Positions 42,780 through 49,067 of a DNA stretch of 57,871 nucleotides are shown piece by piece. The position numbers and the translations under genes are program-made. Position 1 is the first letter of the stretch. Every line of letters starts with the position of its first letter. The notes under the pieces are model-generated. The model searched no databases. It saw nothing but the letters and a program-made list of their open reading frames with translations, and was not told the origin of the DNA. This stretch comes from an uncultured Pelagibacteraceae bacterium (GTDB taxonomy: Bacteria; Pseudomonadota; Alphaproteobacteria; Pelagibacterales; Pelagibacteraceae). The stretch spans positions 1 through 57,871 of the forward strand of contig CACDFC010000005.1 in assembly GCA_902552035.1 (NCBI GenBank), read 5' to 3'.

Positions 42780-42868
42780 TATAATTATGTTACTGTTGAG
42801 ATTACAAAATTCAAAAATGAGAACTTTTGTCATGGTGATTCGGTCTTGTTTTAGACTATTTTTGTTCT
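42780..42868 (+). other. intergenic element upstream of the helicase: -10 box plus terminator-like hairpin
   Basis: The 202-nt gap between the thioesterase and helicase genes contains TATAAT at 42780-42785 and, about 65 nt later, a GGTCT-TGTTTT-AGACT hairpin (42842-42857) followed by a T-rich ATTTTTGTTC run. This could mark a short transcript of about 75 nt or an attenuator for the helicase. The stretch is less A+T-rich than its surroundings (CATGGTGATTCGGTC). A 33-codon open frame (42787-42888) runs through it but uses codons atypical of the neighbours (CTG, CGG), so I do not call it a gene. Confidence 0.3.
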
Positions 42869-42920: not shown

Positions 42921-45401
42921 ATGGTAAAAAATAAAATTAATGCAGTTTTAGGTCCCACAAATACAGGAAAAACCTTTCTTGCAATTGAAACAATGCTTTC
43001 TTTTGAGTCAGGAATGATAGGTTTTCCTTTAAGACTCTTAGCTAGAGAGGTCTATGACAAAATTACAAAAAAAATCTCAGTAGATAAAGTTGCGCTAATC
43101 ACTGGTGAGGAAAAAATTATACCACCAAATTCGAAGTATTTTTTATGTACTGTTGAGTCCATGCCTACAGATAAAAATGTAGAGTTTGTAGGCGTTGACG
43201 AAATACAAATGTGTACAGATCATGAGCGGGGTCATATTTTCACTGACAGATTATTAAACCTAAGAGGTCAAAAACTAACTATGTTTATGGGTTCAAACTC
43301 TATGAAAAATATTATAGATAAACTTGAGGAAGATGTTGAATATATTAATCGAAAAAGACTTTCGAAACTTACATACTCTGGTCATAAAAAAATTTCAAGA
43401 ATTGAAAGAAAAAGTGCAATAATTGCTTTCTCTGCTGAGGAGGTCTATGCAATTGCTGAATTAATTAGGAGACAAAAGGGTGGAGCTGCAATTGTAATGG
43501 GCTCTTTAAGTCCTAAGACTAGAAATTCTCAAGTAGAACTTTATCAATCAGGAGATGTAGATTATTTAGTTGCAACAGACGCTATTGGAATGGGAATTAA
43601 TATGGATTTAGATAATGTTTATTTTTCAAACTTAAAGAAATTTGATGGCAAAAAACTTAGAAGACTTAAAGTTTCAGAGATAGGTCAAATTTCAGGAAGA
43701 GCGGGTAGATATTTAAATGATGGGTCTTTTGGAATTACTGGTAATTCTGGAGAAATAACAGCTGAAGAGGTTGAACTTTTAGAAAATCATAAGTTTGACG
43801 AAATTCACTCAATATATTGGAGAAATACGAATTTAAATTTCAAAAATGGAGATAATTTAATTAAATCTTTAGAGGAAAGACCAAATAAAAATTGGCTTAA
43901 AAGAATTTATGAGTGCGAGGACGAAAAGGTTTTAAGACATATTTTAAAAGATACAGAAAAATTAGAAATTTATAAAAATGAAAATGAATTAAAATTATTA
44001 TGGGAGTGTTGCCAAATACCTGATTTTGTCAAAAAAACCTATGGCAATCATTTAGAGGTAGTTGGAAAGGTTTTTAATTTTCTAAGAGAAAAACCAGGGC
44101 GAATTTCTAATAGTTATATGAAAGAGCAATTATCAAGTTTAGATAGGTCAGAGGGAAATGTGGACTCTATATCAAATAGAATAGCAAATGTAAGAACATG
44201 GGCATATGTCTCGAATAAGTCAAATTGGGTCGAAAACCAAGACTACTGGATAGAAAGAACAAAATATATTGAAGATAAACTTTCTGATCGTCTTCACGAA
44301 GAACTAATTAAAAGTTTTATAGATAAAAGAGCTAGTGTGTTAGCAAAAGGCTTAAAACAAGATATAAACTTCGAAACTAAAATTCTTGAAAGTGAGCAAG
44401 TTTTTATTGATAAGCAATATATTGGAAAATTAAAAGGTTTAAAACTAGATTTAGATCTCAAGATAGGGGCTCTTGATGCTGATATAAAATCTTTAAAAAA
44501 AGCAGCGAGACAAAACGTTAGCCCAGAGATAATAAACCGAATTGATAAAATTATTAAAGGAAGTTCAATAAGATTAGAAAATGATTTAAAAATTTACTGG
44601 GAGAAATATCCTGTTGCTAAACTAGCACCTGGTAAAGATTATTTAAAACCAGAGATCTCTTTAATAATCGATGATATGATTGAAAGTTCAGATAAACAAA
44701 AATTAAAAAATCATTTAGATCATTGGATGTCTAATAAAATTAATACAGATTTAAAAGATCTTTTAAGTTTAAAAAACTCTGAACAAAAAAATCCACAAGT
44801 TAGAGCACTTTCATATCTTCTTTATGAAAATAATGGTGTTGTTAAGAGAGAAAATGTTTTAGAAATTTTAAAAAAATTGGAACAAAATGATAGAAAAATT
44901 TTAAGAAGTATGGGTATAAAGTTTGGCAGATATCACATATTTTTATATAAATTATTTAAACCTACTCCGGTGTCTTTAAGAATATGTTTGTGGAAAAATT
45001 TTCATCAAAATTATTTTGATCTAAAACCTCCAACATTTGGTTTAAATTTTATTGAAGAAAAAAATTTTAGCAATAATTCTTTCATGCTATTATGTGGTTT
45101 TGAAAAATTTGGAAATTTTTATGTAAGGATTGATATATTAGAAAGATTATTTATGAATATAATAAGCTTAAGCTCTAGTGAAAATAAAGAAATTAAGCTT
45201 GTACCTGAAATGCTAAATCTTTTGGGGTGTAACAAATCTAATTTTTTAAAATTAATAAAATTTATGAGTTATAATTATTTTGAAAAAGAAAAAGAGATAT
45301 ATTTTAAATATTTGCCAAAAAAGATAAAAAAAAGTAAACCATATGTTAAAAATGAAAAAAATAATCCATTTAATATATTAAACCAGATAAATTTTAAATA
45401 A
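42921..45401 (+). CDS. Suv3-like DExH helicase
   Basis: An 826-residue superfamily 2 helicase of the Suv3/MRH4-like group found in alphaproteobacteria and mitochondria, where Suv3 unwinds RNA for degradation. Motif I is GPTNTGKT (residues 11-18), motif II is VDEIQM (DEIQ), the second RecA-like domain has VATDAIGMGINMDLDNVYF and motif VI QISGRAGR. The long C-terminal part is helical with unknown detail. Its stop overlaps the next gene by 1 nt (TAATG), followed by TerB-like, fdxA and carD, a neighbourhood close to that in other alphaproteobacteria. Confidence 0.9.
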   Translation: MVKNKINAVLGPTNTGKTFLAIETMLSFESGMIGFPLRLLAREVYDKITKKISVDKVALITGEEKIIPPNSKYFLCTVESMPTDKNVEFVGVDEIQMCTDHERGHIFTDRLLNLRGQKLTMFMGSNSMKNIIDKLEEDVEYINRKRLSKLTYSGHKKISRIERKSAIIAFSAEEVYAIAELIRRQKGGAAIVMGSLSPKTRNSQVELYQSGDVDYLVATDAIGMGINMDLDNVYFSNLKKFDGKKLRRLKVSEIGQISGRAGRYLNDGSFGITGNSGEITAEEVELLENHKFDEIHSIYWRNTNLNFKNGDNLIKSLEERPNKNWLKRIYECEDEKVLRHILKDTEKLEIYKNENELKLLWECCQIPDFVKKTYGNHLEVVGKVFNFLREKPGRISNSYMKEQLSSLDRSEGNVDSISNRIANVRTWAYVSNKSNWVENQDYWIERTKYIEDKLSDRLHEELIKSFIDKRASVLAKGLKQDINFETKILESEQVFIDKQYIGKLKGLKLDLDLKIGALDADIKSLKKAARQNVSPEIINRIDKIIKGSSIRLENDLKIYWEKYPVAKLAPGKDYLKPEISLIIDDMIESSDKQKLKNHLDHWMSNKINTDLKDLLSLKNSEQKNPQVRALSYLLYENNGVVKRENVLEILKKLEQNDRKILRSMGIKFGRYHIFLYKLFKPTPVSLRICLWKNFHQNYFDLKPPTFGLNFIEEKNFSNNSFMLLCGFEKFGNFYVRIDILERLFMNIISLSSSENKEIKLVPEMLNLLGCNKSNFLKLIKFMSYNYFEKEKEIYFKYLPKKIKKSKPYVKNEKNNPFNILNQINFK

Positions 45402-45829: not shown

Positions 45830-46152
45830 CTTATTTGGTTAATGAAAAATGTATTAAATGTAAGCTGATGGACTGCGTAGAAGTATGTCCTGTTGACTGT
45901 TTCTATGAAGGTAAAAATATGCTTGTAATTAAACCAGATGAGTGTATAGATTGTGGCGTTTGTGAACCAGAATGTCCTGTTGACGCTATAGTTCCTGACA
46001 CAGAAAGTGGAAGTGAAAAGTGGTTAGATATAAACAAAAAATACTCAGAAATTTGGCCAAATATTTCAGAAAAGAAAGAACCTCCAACAGACAGTCAAGA
46101 TTTTAAAGATGAAAAAAATAAATTTGAAAAGTATTTTAAAGAAAACATTTAA
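45826..46152 (+). CDS. fdxA: ferredoxin FdxA (7Fe-8S type)
   Basis: A 108-residue seven-iron ferredoxin. The cysteine layout [21 protein letters not shown] (3Fe-4S) and [16 protein letters not shown] (4Fe-4S) is diagnostic, with an extended C-terminal tail. It transfers low-potential electrons to partners not identifiable here. It overlaps the TerB-like gene by 4 nt and the carD frame by 44 nt, which keeps the alphaproteobacterial fdxA-carD pair. Confidence 0.96.
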
Positions 46153-46939
46153 AAAAAAAAATACAAAAAATACTAAGACTAAAGTCGCTAAAAACAAGAC
46201 ACAAAAAGTAAAATCAAAAATTAAAAAAACTAAAAAGATAAAAGAAAGTAAAAAAGTAATTAAGAAAAAAGACAATTTACATCAATCTGTCAACAAATCA
46301 GAAAATCTTAGAATTGTAAAAAATAATGAACAAAAGCCTGAAATAAAAAAAGTAAAAAAACAAGAAAGTGAAAAAAGAATTTACAAAATTAAAGATTATG
46401 TCGTTTACCCTAAACATGGTGTAGGACAAATTACGGAATTTAAGAAAATAAATATCGGGGGAATAGAAGTTGAAACTTATATTTTAAAATTTGAAAAGGA
46501 TAAAGCAAACGGTATGGTACCAGTTAACAAACAAGTTAATTTGAGACCTTTAGCCACTATCAATCAAGTAAATAAATGTATTAGTATTTTAAAAAGTAAA
46601 CCAAAAATTAAAAGATCAATGTGGAGCAGGAGAGCTCAGGAATATGAAGCAAAAATATCTTCCGGTAAAATTTATGAACTTGCAGAAGTGGTTAGAGACT
46701 TGAATAAAGGCGATGATATTCTAGTCGACCAATCTTATAGTGAAAGACAATTATTTGAAAAAGCTTATGAAAGACTTCTTACAGAGTTTCAAATAGTTAT
46801 GAATTCTACGTTAGAAGATGCACAGAAAAAATTAGATAAAGCATTGAAAAGAAATTTACAAAGTCAAACTCAAAAAATTGAAGAAATTCAAAAAGTAAAA
46901 GATAATCAAGAAGAAATATCCGAAGAAGCACAGCAATAA
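46109..46939 (+). CDS. carD: CarD family transcriptional regulator with lysine-rich N-terminal extension
   Basis: CarD/CdnL proteins bind RNA polymerase beta and stabilise open promoter complexes. The CarD domain starts near residue 90 with [17 protein letters not shown] and continues to the helical DNA-binding region ([28 protein letters not shown]). The first about 90 residues are an unusual, disordered, Lys/Thr-rich tail ([15 protein letters not shown]...). ATG 46109 lies 44 nt inside fdxA; no other in-frame ATG exists before the domain. The C-terminus is acidic/Gln-rich. The gene ends at a strong bidirectional terminator. Confidence 0.92.
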
Positions 46940-46945
46940 AAAAAA

Positions 46946-46984
46946 ACGCTCCCCACGCGAACGCCATGGGAAGCGTAATTTTTT
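46946..46984. terminator. bidirectional intrinsic terminator between carD and the Lys/Arg peptide gene
   Basis: A G+C-rich inverted repeat, ACGCTCCCCA...TGGGAAGCGT (stem of five pairs, one C-A mismatch, four more pairs, about 11-nt loop), is flanked by A runs on the left and AATTTTTT on the right. It can therefore stop transcription from both sides: carD on the plus strand and the 24-residue peptide gene on the minus strand. It is the only classical terminator I can recognise in the window. Confidence 0.85.
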
Positions 46985-47001
46985 AAAAAAAGAATGCTAA
47001 A

Positions 47002-47076
47002 CTATCTTCTTCTTCTTTTTTTAGCTTTTTTAGCTTTCTTTTTCTTCTTAGCAGCTTTTTTTCTTCTTTTAGCCAT
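47002..47076 (-). CDS. 24-aa Lys/Arg-rich basic peptide
   Basis: ATG 47076 to TAG 47002 encodes a 24-residue peptide beginning MAKRRKKAAKKKKKAKKA and ending in four arginines; 12 Lys and 6 Arg make 18 of 24 residues basic, the rest being Met and Ala. It is too short for the ORF track. Support for a real gene: a strong AGGGAG Shine-Dalgarno 6 nt upstream, a consensus -35 box, a leader hairpin, and its own terminator 18 nt downstream. It resembles the tail of histone H1-like or ribosomal proteins; nucleic-acid binding is the obvious inference. No family name is claimed. Confidence 0.75.
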   Translation of the reverse strand: MAKRRKKAAKKKKKAKKAKKRRRR

Positions 47077-47096
47077 CTTTAGCTCCCTGTTTTATT

Positions 47097-47115
47097 ACGA
47101 ATCTTTATGATTCGT
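47097..47115 (-). promoter_or_regulatory. leader hairpin of the Lys/Arg peptide gene
   Basis: A perfect 7-bp inverted repeat, ACGAATC-5 nt-GATTCGT, lies in the 5' leader about 10 nt upstream of the AGGGAG ribosome-binding site. It could stabilise the message or serve as a binding site for a regulator. No U run follows, so it is not an intrinsic terminator. Confidence 0.5.
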
Positions 47116-47127
47116 TTGTTAACTATG

Positions 47128-47156
47128 TTTTTATTTTTTTTGATTAGTTATGTCAA
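47128..47156 (-). promoter_or_regulatory. sigma-70-type promoter of the Lys/Arg peptide gene
   Basis: On the minus strand a perfect TTGACA (47151-47156) is followed after 17 nt by TAAAAA (47128-47133). The -35 box and spacing are ideal while the -10 box is weak. Transcription would begin near 47121, giving a leader of about 45 nt that includes the 7-bp hairpin. The rest of the gap up to 47265 is A+T-rich, with no further feature seen. Confidence 0.5.
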
Positions 47157-47265: not shown

Positions 47266-48972
47266 TTAATAAAGTTCTTCAAATTTTTTTTTATATTTCT
47301 GTACAATCTTAAATCTTTTTAGTTTTAATGTTGGTGTTAACATTCCATTTTCAATTGAAAATTTTTCATTAATTACGAAAAATTTTTTTATTTTTTCTAT
47401 TTTTGATAATTTTATATTAATTTTTTCAATTTCTTCTTTTATTTGTTCATTTGTAAGTGAATTTTTTTCACTGTTAAGTACGATTAATGCAACAATAAAA
47501 GGTTTGTTATCTCCATAAACTACTGCTTGCTCAAAAAGCTCTGAATTTATTATTTCATTTTCTACTTTAAGTGGTGAGATATTATCTCCACCAGGCGTTA
47601 TTAAAATGTCTTTTTTTCTATCAGTTATTTTTAAGTAATTATTTTCAAAGGCTCCTATGTCTCCAGTATGAAGCCACCCATTTTTTAAAACTTTATCAGT
47701 TTCCTCTTTGTTATTCCAATATCCAATCATAACATTTTCACCTTTAACAAGTATCTCACCATCTTCAGCAATTTTTACCTCATTTCCCTTGAAAGGTGGC
47801 CCTACGGTTTCTACTCTTATGTCGTTAATTGGATTACAGCTTACTACTGGGGATGTTTCGGTTAAACCATAGCCTTGCAAAGTGGGTAATCCAATTGCAT
47901 TTAGAAAAAAACCAACTTCTTTATCTAGAGCCCCTCCACCTGAAACGAAGGTTTTTAGAGATCCTCCAAATTGAGCCTTTATTTTACTTCTTACAATTTT
48001 TTCTAAAATAATATCGAGTATATTTTCTAAAAAAGTCAGAGGTTCCTTTTTAATTTTTTTCAGACCGAGATTAAGCATTTTTCGAACTAAAATTTTTTTA
48101 TATCCTGTTGTTTTATTAAAACTTGAATTAATTTTTTGGTAAAGATTTTGATAAAATCTTGGTACAGCTGTCATAATCTCAGGTTTACAATCATTCATGT
48201 TTTTTATTAATTTATCAATACTTTCAGCATAGAAAATTCTAGCTGAAACAGAAATTTGAACAAATTGGACTGTATGTTCATAAGAGTGAGATAAAGGTAG
48301 CCAAGTTAAAAATCTTGTTTCTTCTTTTTTAATTAATGGCTCTAAAATTTCTAATGCACCATCACAATTATTTAAAATTCCTCCGTGGCTAAGTATAACT
48401 CCTTTCGGATTTCCTTGGGTACCAGAAGTATAGATTATACAAGCAGGATCATTCCTATTAATTTTAATTTTAGAAATAGAATGCGTGTAATTAGAGTTCG
48501 AATTCAAATTATTAATGTTTATATATTCATTTTCTTTAGTACCTTCTAATTTGTCGAAAGAAAAAACTTTTTTAATAAAATTTTTACTTTTAATTATATT
48601 TTCAATTTTTTTATACTGCTCATCATTTGAAACAAAAACTACTGAAGGTTTACAATCATTAATAATATAATCGTAATCTTTTTCGGCATAAGTTGTGTAT
48701 GCTGGTACTGTTATTGCTTCAGATAACATTATTGAAATATCTGCAATAAACCATTCAGGCCTATTTTCTGAAACCAACAAACATCTATCTCCCTTATTTA
48801 AATATTCCTTTAACTTTGTCGAAAGTGTATTAATTGACTCATAAGTTTTTTGCCAACTATAATTTTTTTTTGGTTCTTTTAAAGATGATAAAAGTATTTT
48901 ATTTTTTTTTTTTTGTTTTTCATATTGATGAAAAAATAACTCGATTAAATTATTAATTTTATTCAATTTCAT
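47266..48972 (-). CDS. AMP-dependent long-chain acyl-CoA synthetase
   Basis: An ANL-superfamily ligase that activates a fatty acid to acyl-AMP and then acyl-CoA. Motifs are clear: IIYTSGTQGNPKGVILSHGG (ATP P-loop), GYGLTETSPV, GWLHTGDIG and ITDRKKDILITPGGDNISP (hinge region). I set the start at ATG 48972 (MKLNKINNL, 568 residues), because the track start at 48990 lies inside the 3' end of tRNA-Leu. It is the FadD15-like type with an N-terminal domain. The chain length is not predictable. Confidence 0.9.
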   Translation of the reverse strand: MKLNKINNLIELFFHQYEKQKKKNKILLSSLKEPKKNYSWQKTYESINTLSTKLKEYLNKGDRCLLVSENRPEWFIADISIMLSEAITVPAYTTYAEKDYDYIINDCKPSVVFVSNDEQYKKIENIIKSKNFIKKVFSFDKLEGTKENEYININNLNSNSNYTHSISKIKINRNDPACIIYTSGTQGNPKGVILSHGGILNNCDGALEILEPLIKKEETRFLTWLPLSHSYEHTVQFVQISVSARIFYAESIDKLIKNMNDCKPEIMTAVPRFYQNLYQKINSSFNKTTGYKKILVRKMLNLGLKKIKKEPLTFLENILDIILEKIVRSKIKAQFGGSLKTFVSGGGALDKEVGFFLNAIGLPTLQGYGLTETSPVVSCNPINDIRVETVGPPFKGNEVKIAEDGEILVKGENVMIGYWNNKEETDKVLKNGWLHTGDIGAFENNYLKITDRKKDILITPGGDNISPLKVENEIINSELFEQAVVYGDNKPFIVALIVLNSEKNSLTNEQIKEEIEKINIKLSKIEKIKKFFVINEKFSIENGMLTPTLKLKRFKIVQKYKKKFEELY

Positions 48973-48980
48973 TTGAGCCT

Positions 48981-49067
48981 TGGTGGGCAAAGAGAGAATC
49001 GAACTCTCACAGTATTACTACTATTGGATTTTGAGTCCAACGCGTCTACCAGTTCCGCCATTCGCCC
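48981..49067 (-). tRNA. tRNA-Leu (CAA)
   Basis: The reverse complement GGGCGAATGGCGGAACTGG... folds as a class II tRNA: acceptor GGGCGAA/TTTGCCC, D loop with the GGTAGACGC signature of tRNA-Leu, anticodon stem TTGGA/TCCAA around loop CTCAAAA (anticodon CAA), a long variable arm, T loop GTTCGATTC and an encoded CCA. Its 3' end lies 8 nt upstream of the acyl-CoA synthetase start, so the two may be co-transcribed. Confidence 0.97.

Follow-up and report, generated by a model that had tools for sequence, protein, structure and literature searches.

The short transcription unit at positions 47002 to 47156 on the minus strand of the window (the whole 57,871-nucleotide stretch of DNA that was analysed, from an uncultured bacterium of the SAR11 family Pelagibacteraceae) is, as judged by comparison with its relatives, a real and conserved protein-coding gene. 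Its 24-residue Lys/Arg product is best read, with slightly more confidence than doubt, as a miniaturised histone-H1-like polycation encoded by a stand-alone, translated gene. The unit is too short for ordinary gene finders and lies below the usual annotation length, and a literature search found no paper describing it. An earlier note on this DNA had proposed such a unit, and most of its parts were located as it described them, all on the minus strand. The open reading frame (ORF) MAKRRKKAAKKKKKAKKAKKRRRR (47002 to 47076; 24 codons plus TAG) keeps its frame in relatives and has 18 basic residues among its 24; the window's form contains Lys, Arg and Ala and no Pro. It is preceded by the ribosome-binding site AGGGAG (47083 to 47088), by a leader of about 45 nt, provided that transcription begins near 47121, and by a -35 hexamer TTGACA (47151 to 47156) with a -10-like hexamer TAAAAA (47128 to 47133) 17 nt from it. 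This -10 box is modest, matching TATAAT at four of six positions and being absent from the listing of a stricter promoter scan. The terminator that the note had seen is present as well, at 46946 to 46976, but it begins 25 nt past the stop codon rather than 18.

That intrinsic terminator (a stem of -20.6 kcal/mol, z -5.1, followed by a T run) is common to the peptide unit and to a convergent carD-family gene (46109 to 46939, plus strand; Pfam CarD_TRCF_RID and CarD_C), a conserved neighbour that the stem serves from the other side. In the carD-family protein, some 90 Lys-rich residues extend the N-terminus ahead of the RID domain (46109 to 46380). Upstream of the unit, on the same strand, lies an AMP-binding (acyl-CoA synthetase-like) gene (47266 to 48990, minus strand; Pfam AMP-binding), which is a neighbour only; its true start is probably further in than the TTG given for it at 48990, because a tRNA-Leu (48981 to 49067) overlaps that codon.

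Orthologous loci were fetched with carD as bait, and not with the ORF itself, which gave 80 loci from public SAR11 genomes and 21 from selected genomes, covering 11 sampled genera of the order. The ORF is present in every one of these loci whose contig reaches the site, in all 11 genera, and the eight carD-anchored loci without a complete ORF are all cut off by the end of the contig, in seven cases within the ORF. Two patterns had been named by the earlier note as evidence against its reading, loss of the ORF and promoter among relatives, and frame-disrupting changes in the ORF beside conserved hairpins; every locus that reaches the site has the ORF, and its length shifts only in threes. A chance low-complexity ORF is ruled out by this conservation together with a randomisation of the window: a single ATG ORF in the window is 20 aa or longer and at least 60% Lys/Arg, and none appeared in 300 first-order Markov randomisations. 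The contig ends that cluster inside the Lys/Arg ORF (loci L010, L026, L034, L047, L070, L113 and L115) indicate a stretch that often breaks SAR11 assemblies. Several genomes of 90% completeness or more (G068, G115 and G141, for example) have assemblies lacking both carD and the peptide unit, and because contig ends cluster at this site we tentatively read these cases as assembly gaps. One 28,477-bp contig, CACBTT010000011.1, has a copy of the carD locus at each end, the two facing opposite ways (L067, L069), and is probably an amplification chimera.

The searches also went beyond the order. Beside carD in other orders of the class, no orthologue was found among 29 loci from genomes other than the window's, the sole exception being a Lys/Ala-rich, H1-like stretch in a genome of another order (L133, positions 1233 to 1610) that precedes and overlaps the carD match. 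When the 85-aa protein of a sister family was searched against 114 genomes of the class, nothing was returned, but a control showed that this query reaches only its own family. A class-wide scan for TTGAC...CGAATCA produced many scattered matches, none of which, among the loci read, was followed by a K/R-rich ORF. Phage origin was considered and rejected, viral contigs having no match to the leader pattern.

The way in which the ORF varies is that of a coding sequence. The 117 intact ORFs of the window's family, taken from the carD-fetched set and from leader-pattern loci of the genus, have 15 different lengths (about 21 to 58 aa across the family), with the frame always kept and changes in multiples of three only; a further 47 ORFs come from additional loci, partly in genomes already sampled. 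Among the 19 unique sequences of the 27-aa group, the variable columns number 3, 11 and 17 at codon positions 1, 2 and 3, respectively; 10 codons vary synonymously only, 7 by a K/R swap and 5 otherwise, and exchange of Lys and Arg makes up the majority of amino-acid changes in this class. The sequence GGGAGCTAAA at the ribosome-binding site is near-invariant within the window's genus, as is the start context GGGAGCTAAA(G)ATG. Conservation falls on the composition and overall charge of the peptide and not on one exact sequence, which is the pattern that a disordered polycation would be expected to show. The sister-family ORFs (L127 to L132) start ATG GAG GAA CTT AAA (MEELK), and in the window's genus GAG CTA AAG stands in frame directly before the ATG (47074 to 47089); the ribosome-binding site of the genus may descend from former codons.

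The H1-like reading draws on longer orthologues of the peptide. At the same syntenic place, and with the same -35-to-CGAATCA architecture, carD-fetched loci of the sister family hold a gene (MEELKVIFAKARKKAKKKAAPKKKRKAAKRKPAKKK...) for a protein of 76 to 91 aa. These orthologues are composed of KAAPKKK/AAKRKPAKKK repeats (for example MEELKVIFAKARKKAKKKAAPKKK...), and further sister-family loci encode 40, 60, 79, 85 and 99 aa built from the same modules in variable repeat number. Within the window's family, genus g4 has intermediate K/A/P-rich forms of 34 to 58 aa, genera g2 and g3 have forms of 36 to 38 aa and 31 aa, respectively, and genera g1, g5, g6 and g7 have forms of 20 to 35 aa. Two features characteristic of H1-like proteins of the HctA/HctB/AlgP type are found in this series: a Lys-rich low-complexity chain with Ala and Pro, in the sister-family and g4 orthologues, and tandem repeats of variable copy number, in the sister-family orthologues. 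We conclude, on sequence grounds, that the 24-mer stands at the short extreme of a series of H1-like forms of about 21 to 99 aa. Orthology along the series is argued from synteny, leader and gradation, the short forms not being retrieved by sequence search with the 85-aa sister protein, and the H1-like character proposed for the window's genus is argued likewise, from synteny, composition and the gradation of forms. No family model in Pfam or NCBIfam matched significantly; we therefore describe the peptide as H1-like in its way of working and assign it to no named family. The H1-like resemblance noticed earlier is borne out by the longer sister-family orthologues and finds no counterpart in a family model. 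We infer that the direction of length change was shrinking rather than growth; our searches found no outgroup with which to polarise it. The 24-aa form, which has no proline, may be too short for true compaction, and it counts against the H1-like reading that K/R-rich tails occur in ribosomal proteins too.

The leader of the unit is also conserved. The element CGAATCA (47108 to 47114, minus strand) opens a hairpin (ACGAATC-ATAAA-GATTCGT, 47097 to 47115, minus strand; z -4.15 against dinucleotide shuffles) that is predicted for each of the 77 unique leaders in the first set and is seen again in later loci. CGAATCA is exactly complementary to TGATTCG, which has been proposed as the extended, methylated motif for activation by GcrA in Caulobacter (PMC7987155). 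It lies 33 to 36 nt after the -35 box in all 114 loci in which both could be measured, whereas the start codon follows it at anything from 28 to 61 nt. It is present in 16 of 16 carD-fetched loci across the order, which constitute the unbiased evidence, since later pattern searches demand CGAATCA by construction. The -35/CGAATCA arrangement occurs once per genome in the window's genus and was found in all 12 sister-family genomes that are at least 90% complete. A CcrM homologue has been reported in SAR11 (PMC3973325), and in our own searches all 11 genomes tested scored above cut-off for GcrA and all 9 tested did so for a protein with the RAMA domain, as in CcrM. Both marks of a GcrA/CcrM regulon, an extended GANTC motif at the promoter that is conserved between species and the presence of GcrA and CcrM-type genes in the genome, are found here. 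Because the TGATTCG element lies near +5, an input from CcrM/GcrA, and with it from the cell cycle, to the peptide gene appears likely. The only other CGAATCA/TGATTCG in the window, at 42836 to 42842, about 80 nt upstream of a helicase-like ORF (42921 to 45401), is a second candidate GcrA site. The earlier note had missed the extended GcrA/CcrM motif at its fixed distance from the -35 box and the order-wide leader hairpin, as well as the place of the peptide at the short end of a length series.

A different account of this control, compatible with any reading of the product, would have CGAATCA invariant only because it forms the 5' side of an RNA hairpin at the start of the transcript, and not because it is a GcrA/CcrM site, and we give it serious weight, somewhat below even. 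All leaders fold, as this account predicts, and in g5 to g7 the 3' arm reads GATTTG, which retains the pairing by G-U and drops the second GANTC copy (47099 to 47103, minus strand, in the window). It does not sit well with genera g2 and g4, in which CGAA is invariant although largely unpaired; RNA pairing alone therefore does not explain CGAATCA. Nor does it account for the identity of the 7-mer with the GcrA activation motif or for the presence of two GANTC copies at the leader when GANTC is scarcer in the window than expected (94 copies against an expected 162). The hairpin itself has two pairs with changes on both sides among the forms of g2, g3, g4 and the sister family, and the pairing is lost when the partner is shifted along (97% versus 28 to 48% of cells); since this comparison involves nine sequences, the support from two-sided changes is modest. 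A second helix, predicted in g2, in g4 and in many leaders of the sister family, would pair CUCC-type bases with the ribosome-binding site, which suggests translational control in these groups; leaders of the window's genus are without it.

The main rival to an H1-like product is a role in binding the ribosome or another RNA, in which the translated peptide would be a tiny ribosomal or ribosome-associated protein resembling eukaryotic eL41. Its length and charge fit such a role, as does the strong ribosome-binding site, and the helix over that site in g2, g4 and the sister family resembles the autogenous control of ribosomal proteins. We nevertheless consider it improbable, because a range of about 21 to 99 aa with variable repeats does not suit a ribosomal protein that occupies a fixed site and the sister-family forms consist of K/A/P repeats as in H1 tails; the PDB gave no sequence match at E up to 10, a 24-aa low-complexity query being a weak probe. 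Far less probable is a locus that acts mainly as a small RNA with a dispensable ORF. The transcript would be short (about 180 nt), its promoter, 5' hairpin and terminator are conserved, and the hairpin is retained with two-sided changes at two pairs, but a small RNA would not explain length shifts confined to threes, third-position bias and K/R-conservative changes, a near-invariant start context and ribosome-binding site, or orthologues that reach 99 codons; the coding pattern rules out a purely non-coding RNA. We dismiss as scarcely credible a type I toxin with antisense RNA on the opposite strand, where a hydrophobic ORF does exist (46994 to 47110, plus strand; MLNYLLLLFLAFLAFFFF...), since its ATG needs GAATGCTAA and nearly all relatives in the genus read GAATACTAA, so that the start is not conserved, and since the promoter, ribosome-binding site and terminator are all oriented for the minus strand.

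Returning to the H1-like reading, we propose that the gene would be transcribed from its own sigma-70-type promoter and end at its own terminator. The 5' hairpin would probably steady the transcript or tune translation, and in some relatives the second helix would cover the ribosome-binding site. The peptide would most likely neutralise and condense nucleic acid, the chromosome first, as bacterial H1-like proteins do, and TGATTCG near +5 would provide the cell-cycle input via CcrM/GcrA. Judged from sequence, our confidence in these steps is highest for translation and falls progressively through charge-based nucleic-acid binding and chromosome compaction to cell-cycle control by GcrA/CcrM. More tentatively, we speculate that the gene could encode a universal SAR11 mini-histone, switched by GANTC methylation and GcrA so that compaction is tied to replication, and reduced during genome streamlining from an H1-like repeat protein to some 24 residues; we think this full picture possible and rather doubtful. 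Few kinds of cell in the ocean outnumber SAR11 bacteria, whose small and densely packed genomes serve as a model of streamlining. A gene conserved in all sampled genera and yet under annotation length is a gap in the SAR11 parts list, and these bacteria, the most abundant in the ocean, probably have a nucleic-acid-binding protein that has been overlooked. With its range from 99 down to 21 residues, the series would show clearly how a chromosomal-type protein was cut to little beyond charge, and the GcrA motif would offer a concrete, testable CcrM/GcrA target in SAR11.

Several known systems resemble parts of this unit. Eukaryotic ribosomal protein eL41 has about 25 residues, mostly Lys and Arg; the SAR11 peptide shares its residue count and Lys/Arg dominance, but relatives of the peptide differ widely in length and repeats. 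The rhtB motif (RF01814) of Ca. Pelagibacter ubique adjoins SAR11_1362 rhtB in HTCC1062 (PMC2704228) and so belongs to another locus than the peptide unit; a 31-bit, sub-threshold match to it on the opposite strand of our unit was treated as chance, and five other loci of the unit had no match. The GcrA/CcrM promoters of Caulobacterales likewise have TGATTCG at a sigma-70-type promoter in genomes that encode both regulators, whereas the SAR11 site lies about 5 nt past the presumed transcription start; conserved GcrA targets have been reported as few in the window's order (PMC7987155). In AlgP of Pseudomonas, KPAA repeats bind DNA and vary in number (PMC9239181), and Chlamydia Hc2 (HctB) varies by lysine-rich pentamers (PMC2848022). 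Both proteins share lysine-rich low complexity with the SAR11 peptide and variable copy number with the K/A/P repeats of the sister family. Unlike both, the SAR11 peptide has no profile match and is reduced in the window's genus to 21 to 35 aa with no proline after residue 2; it also lacks the N-terminal helical domain of AlgP, and its gene has a leader of its own with a conserved hairpin and a GcrA-type motif.
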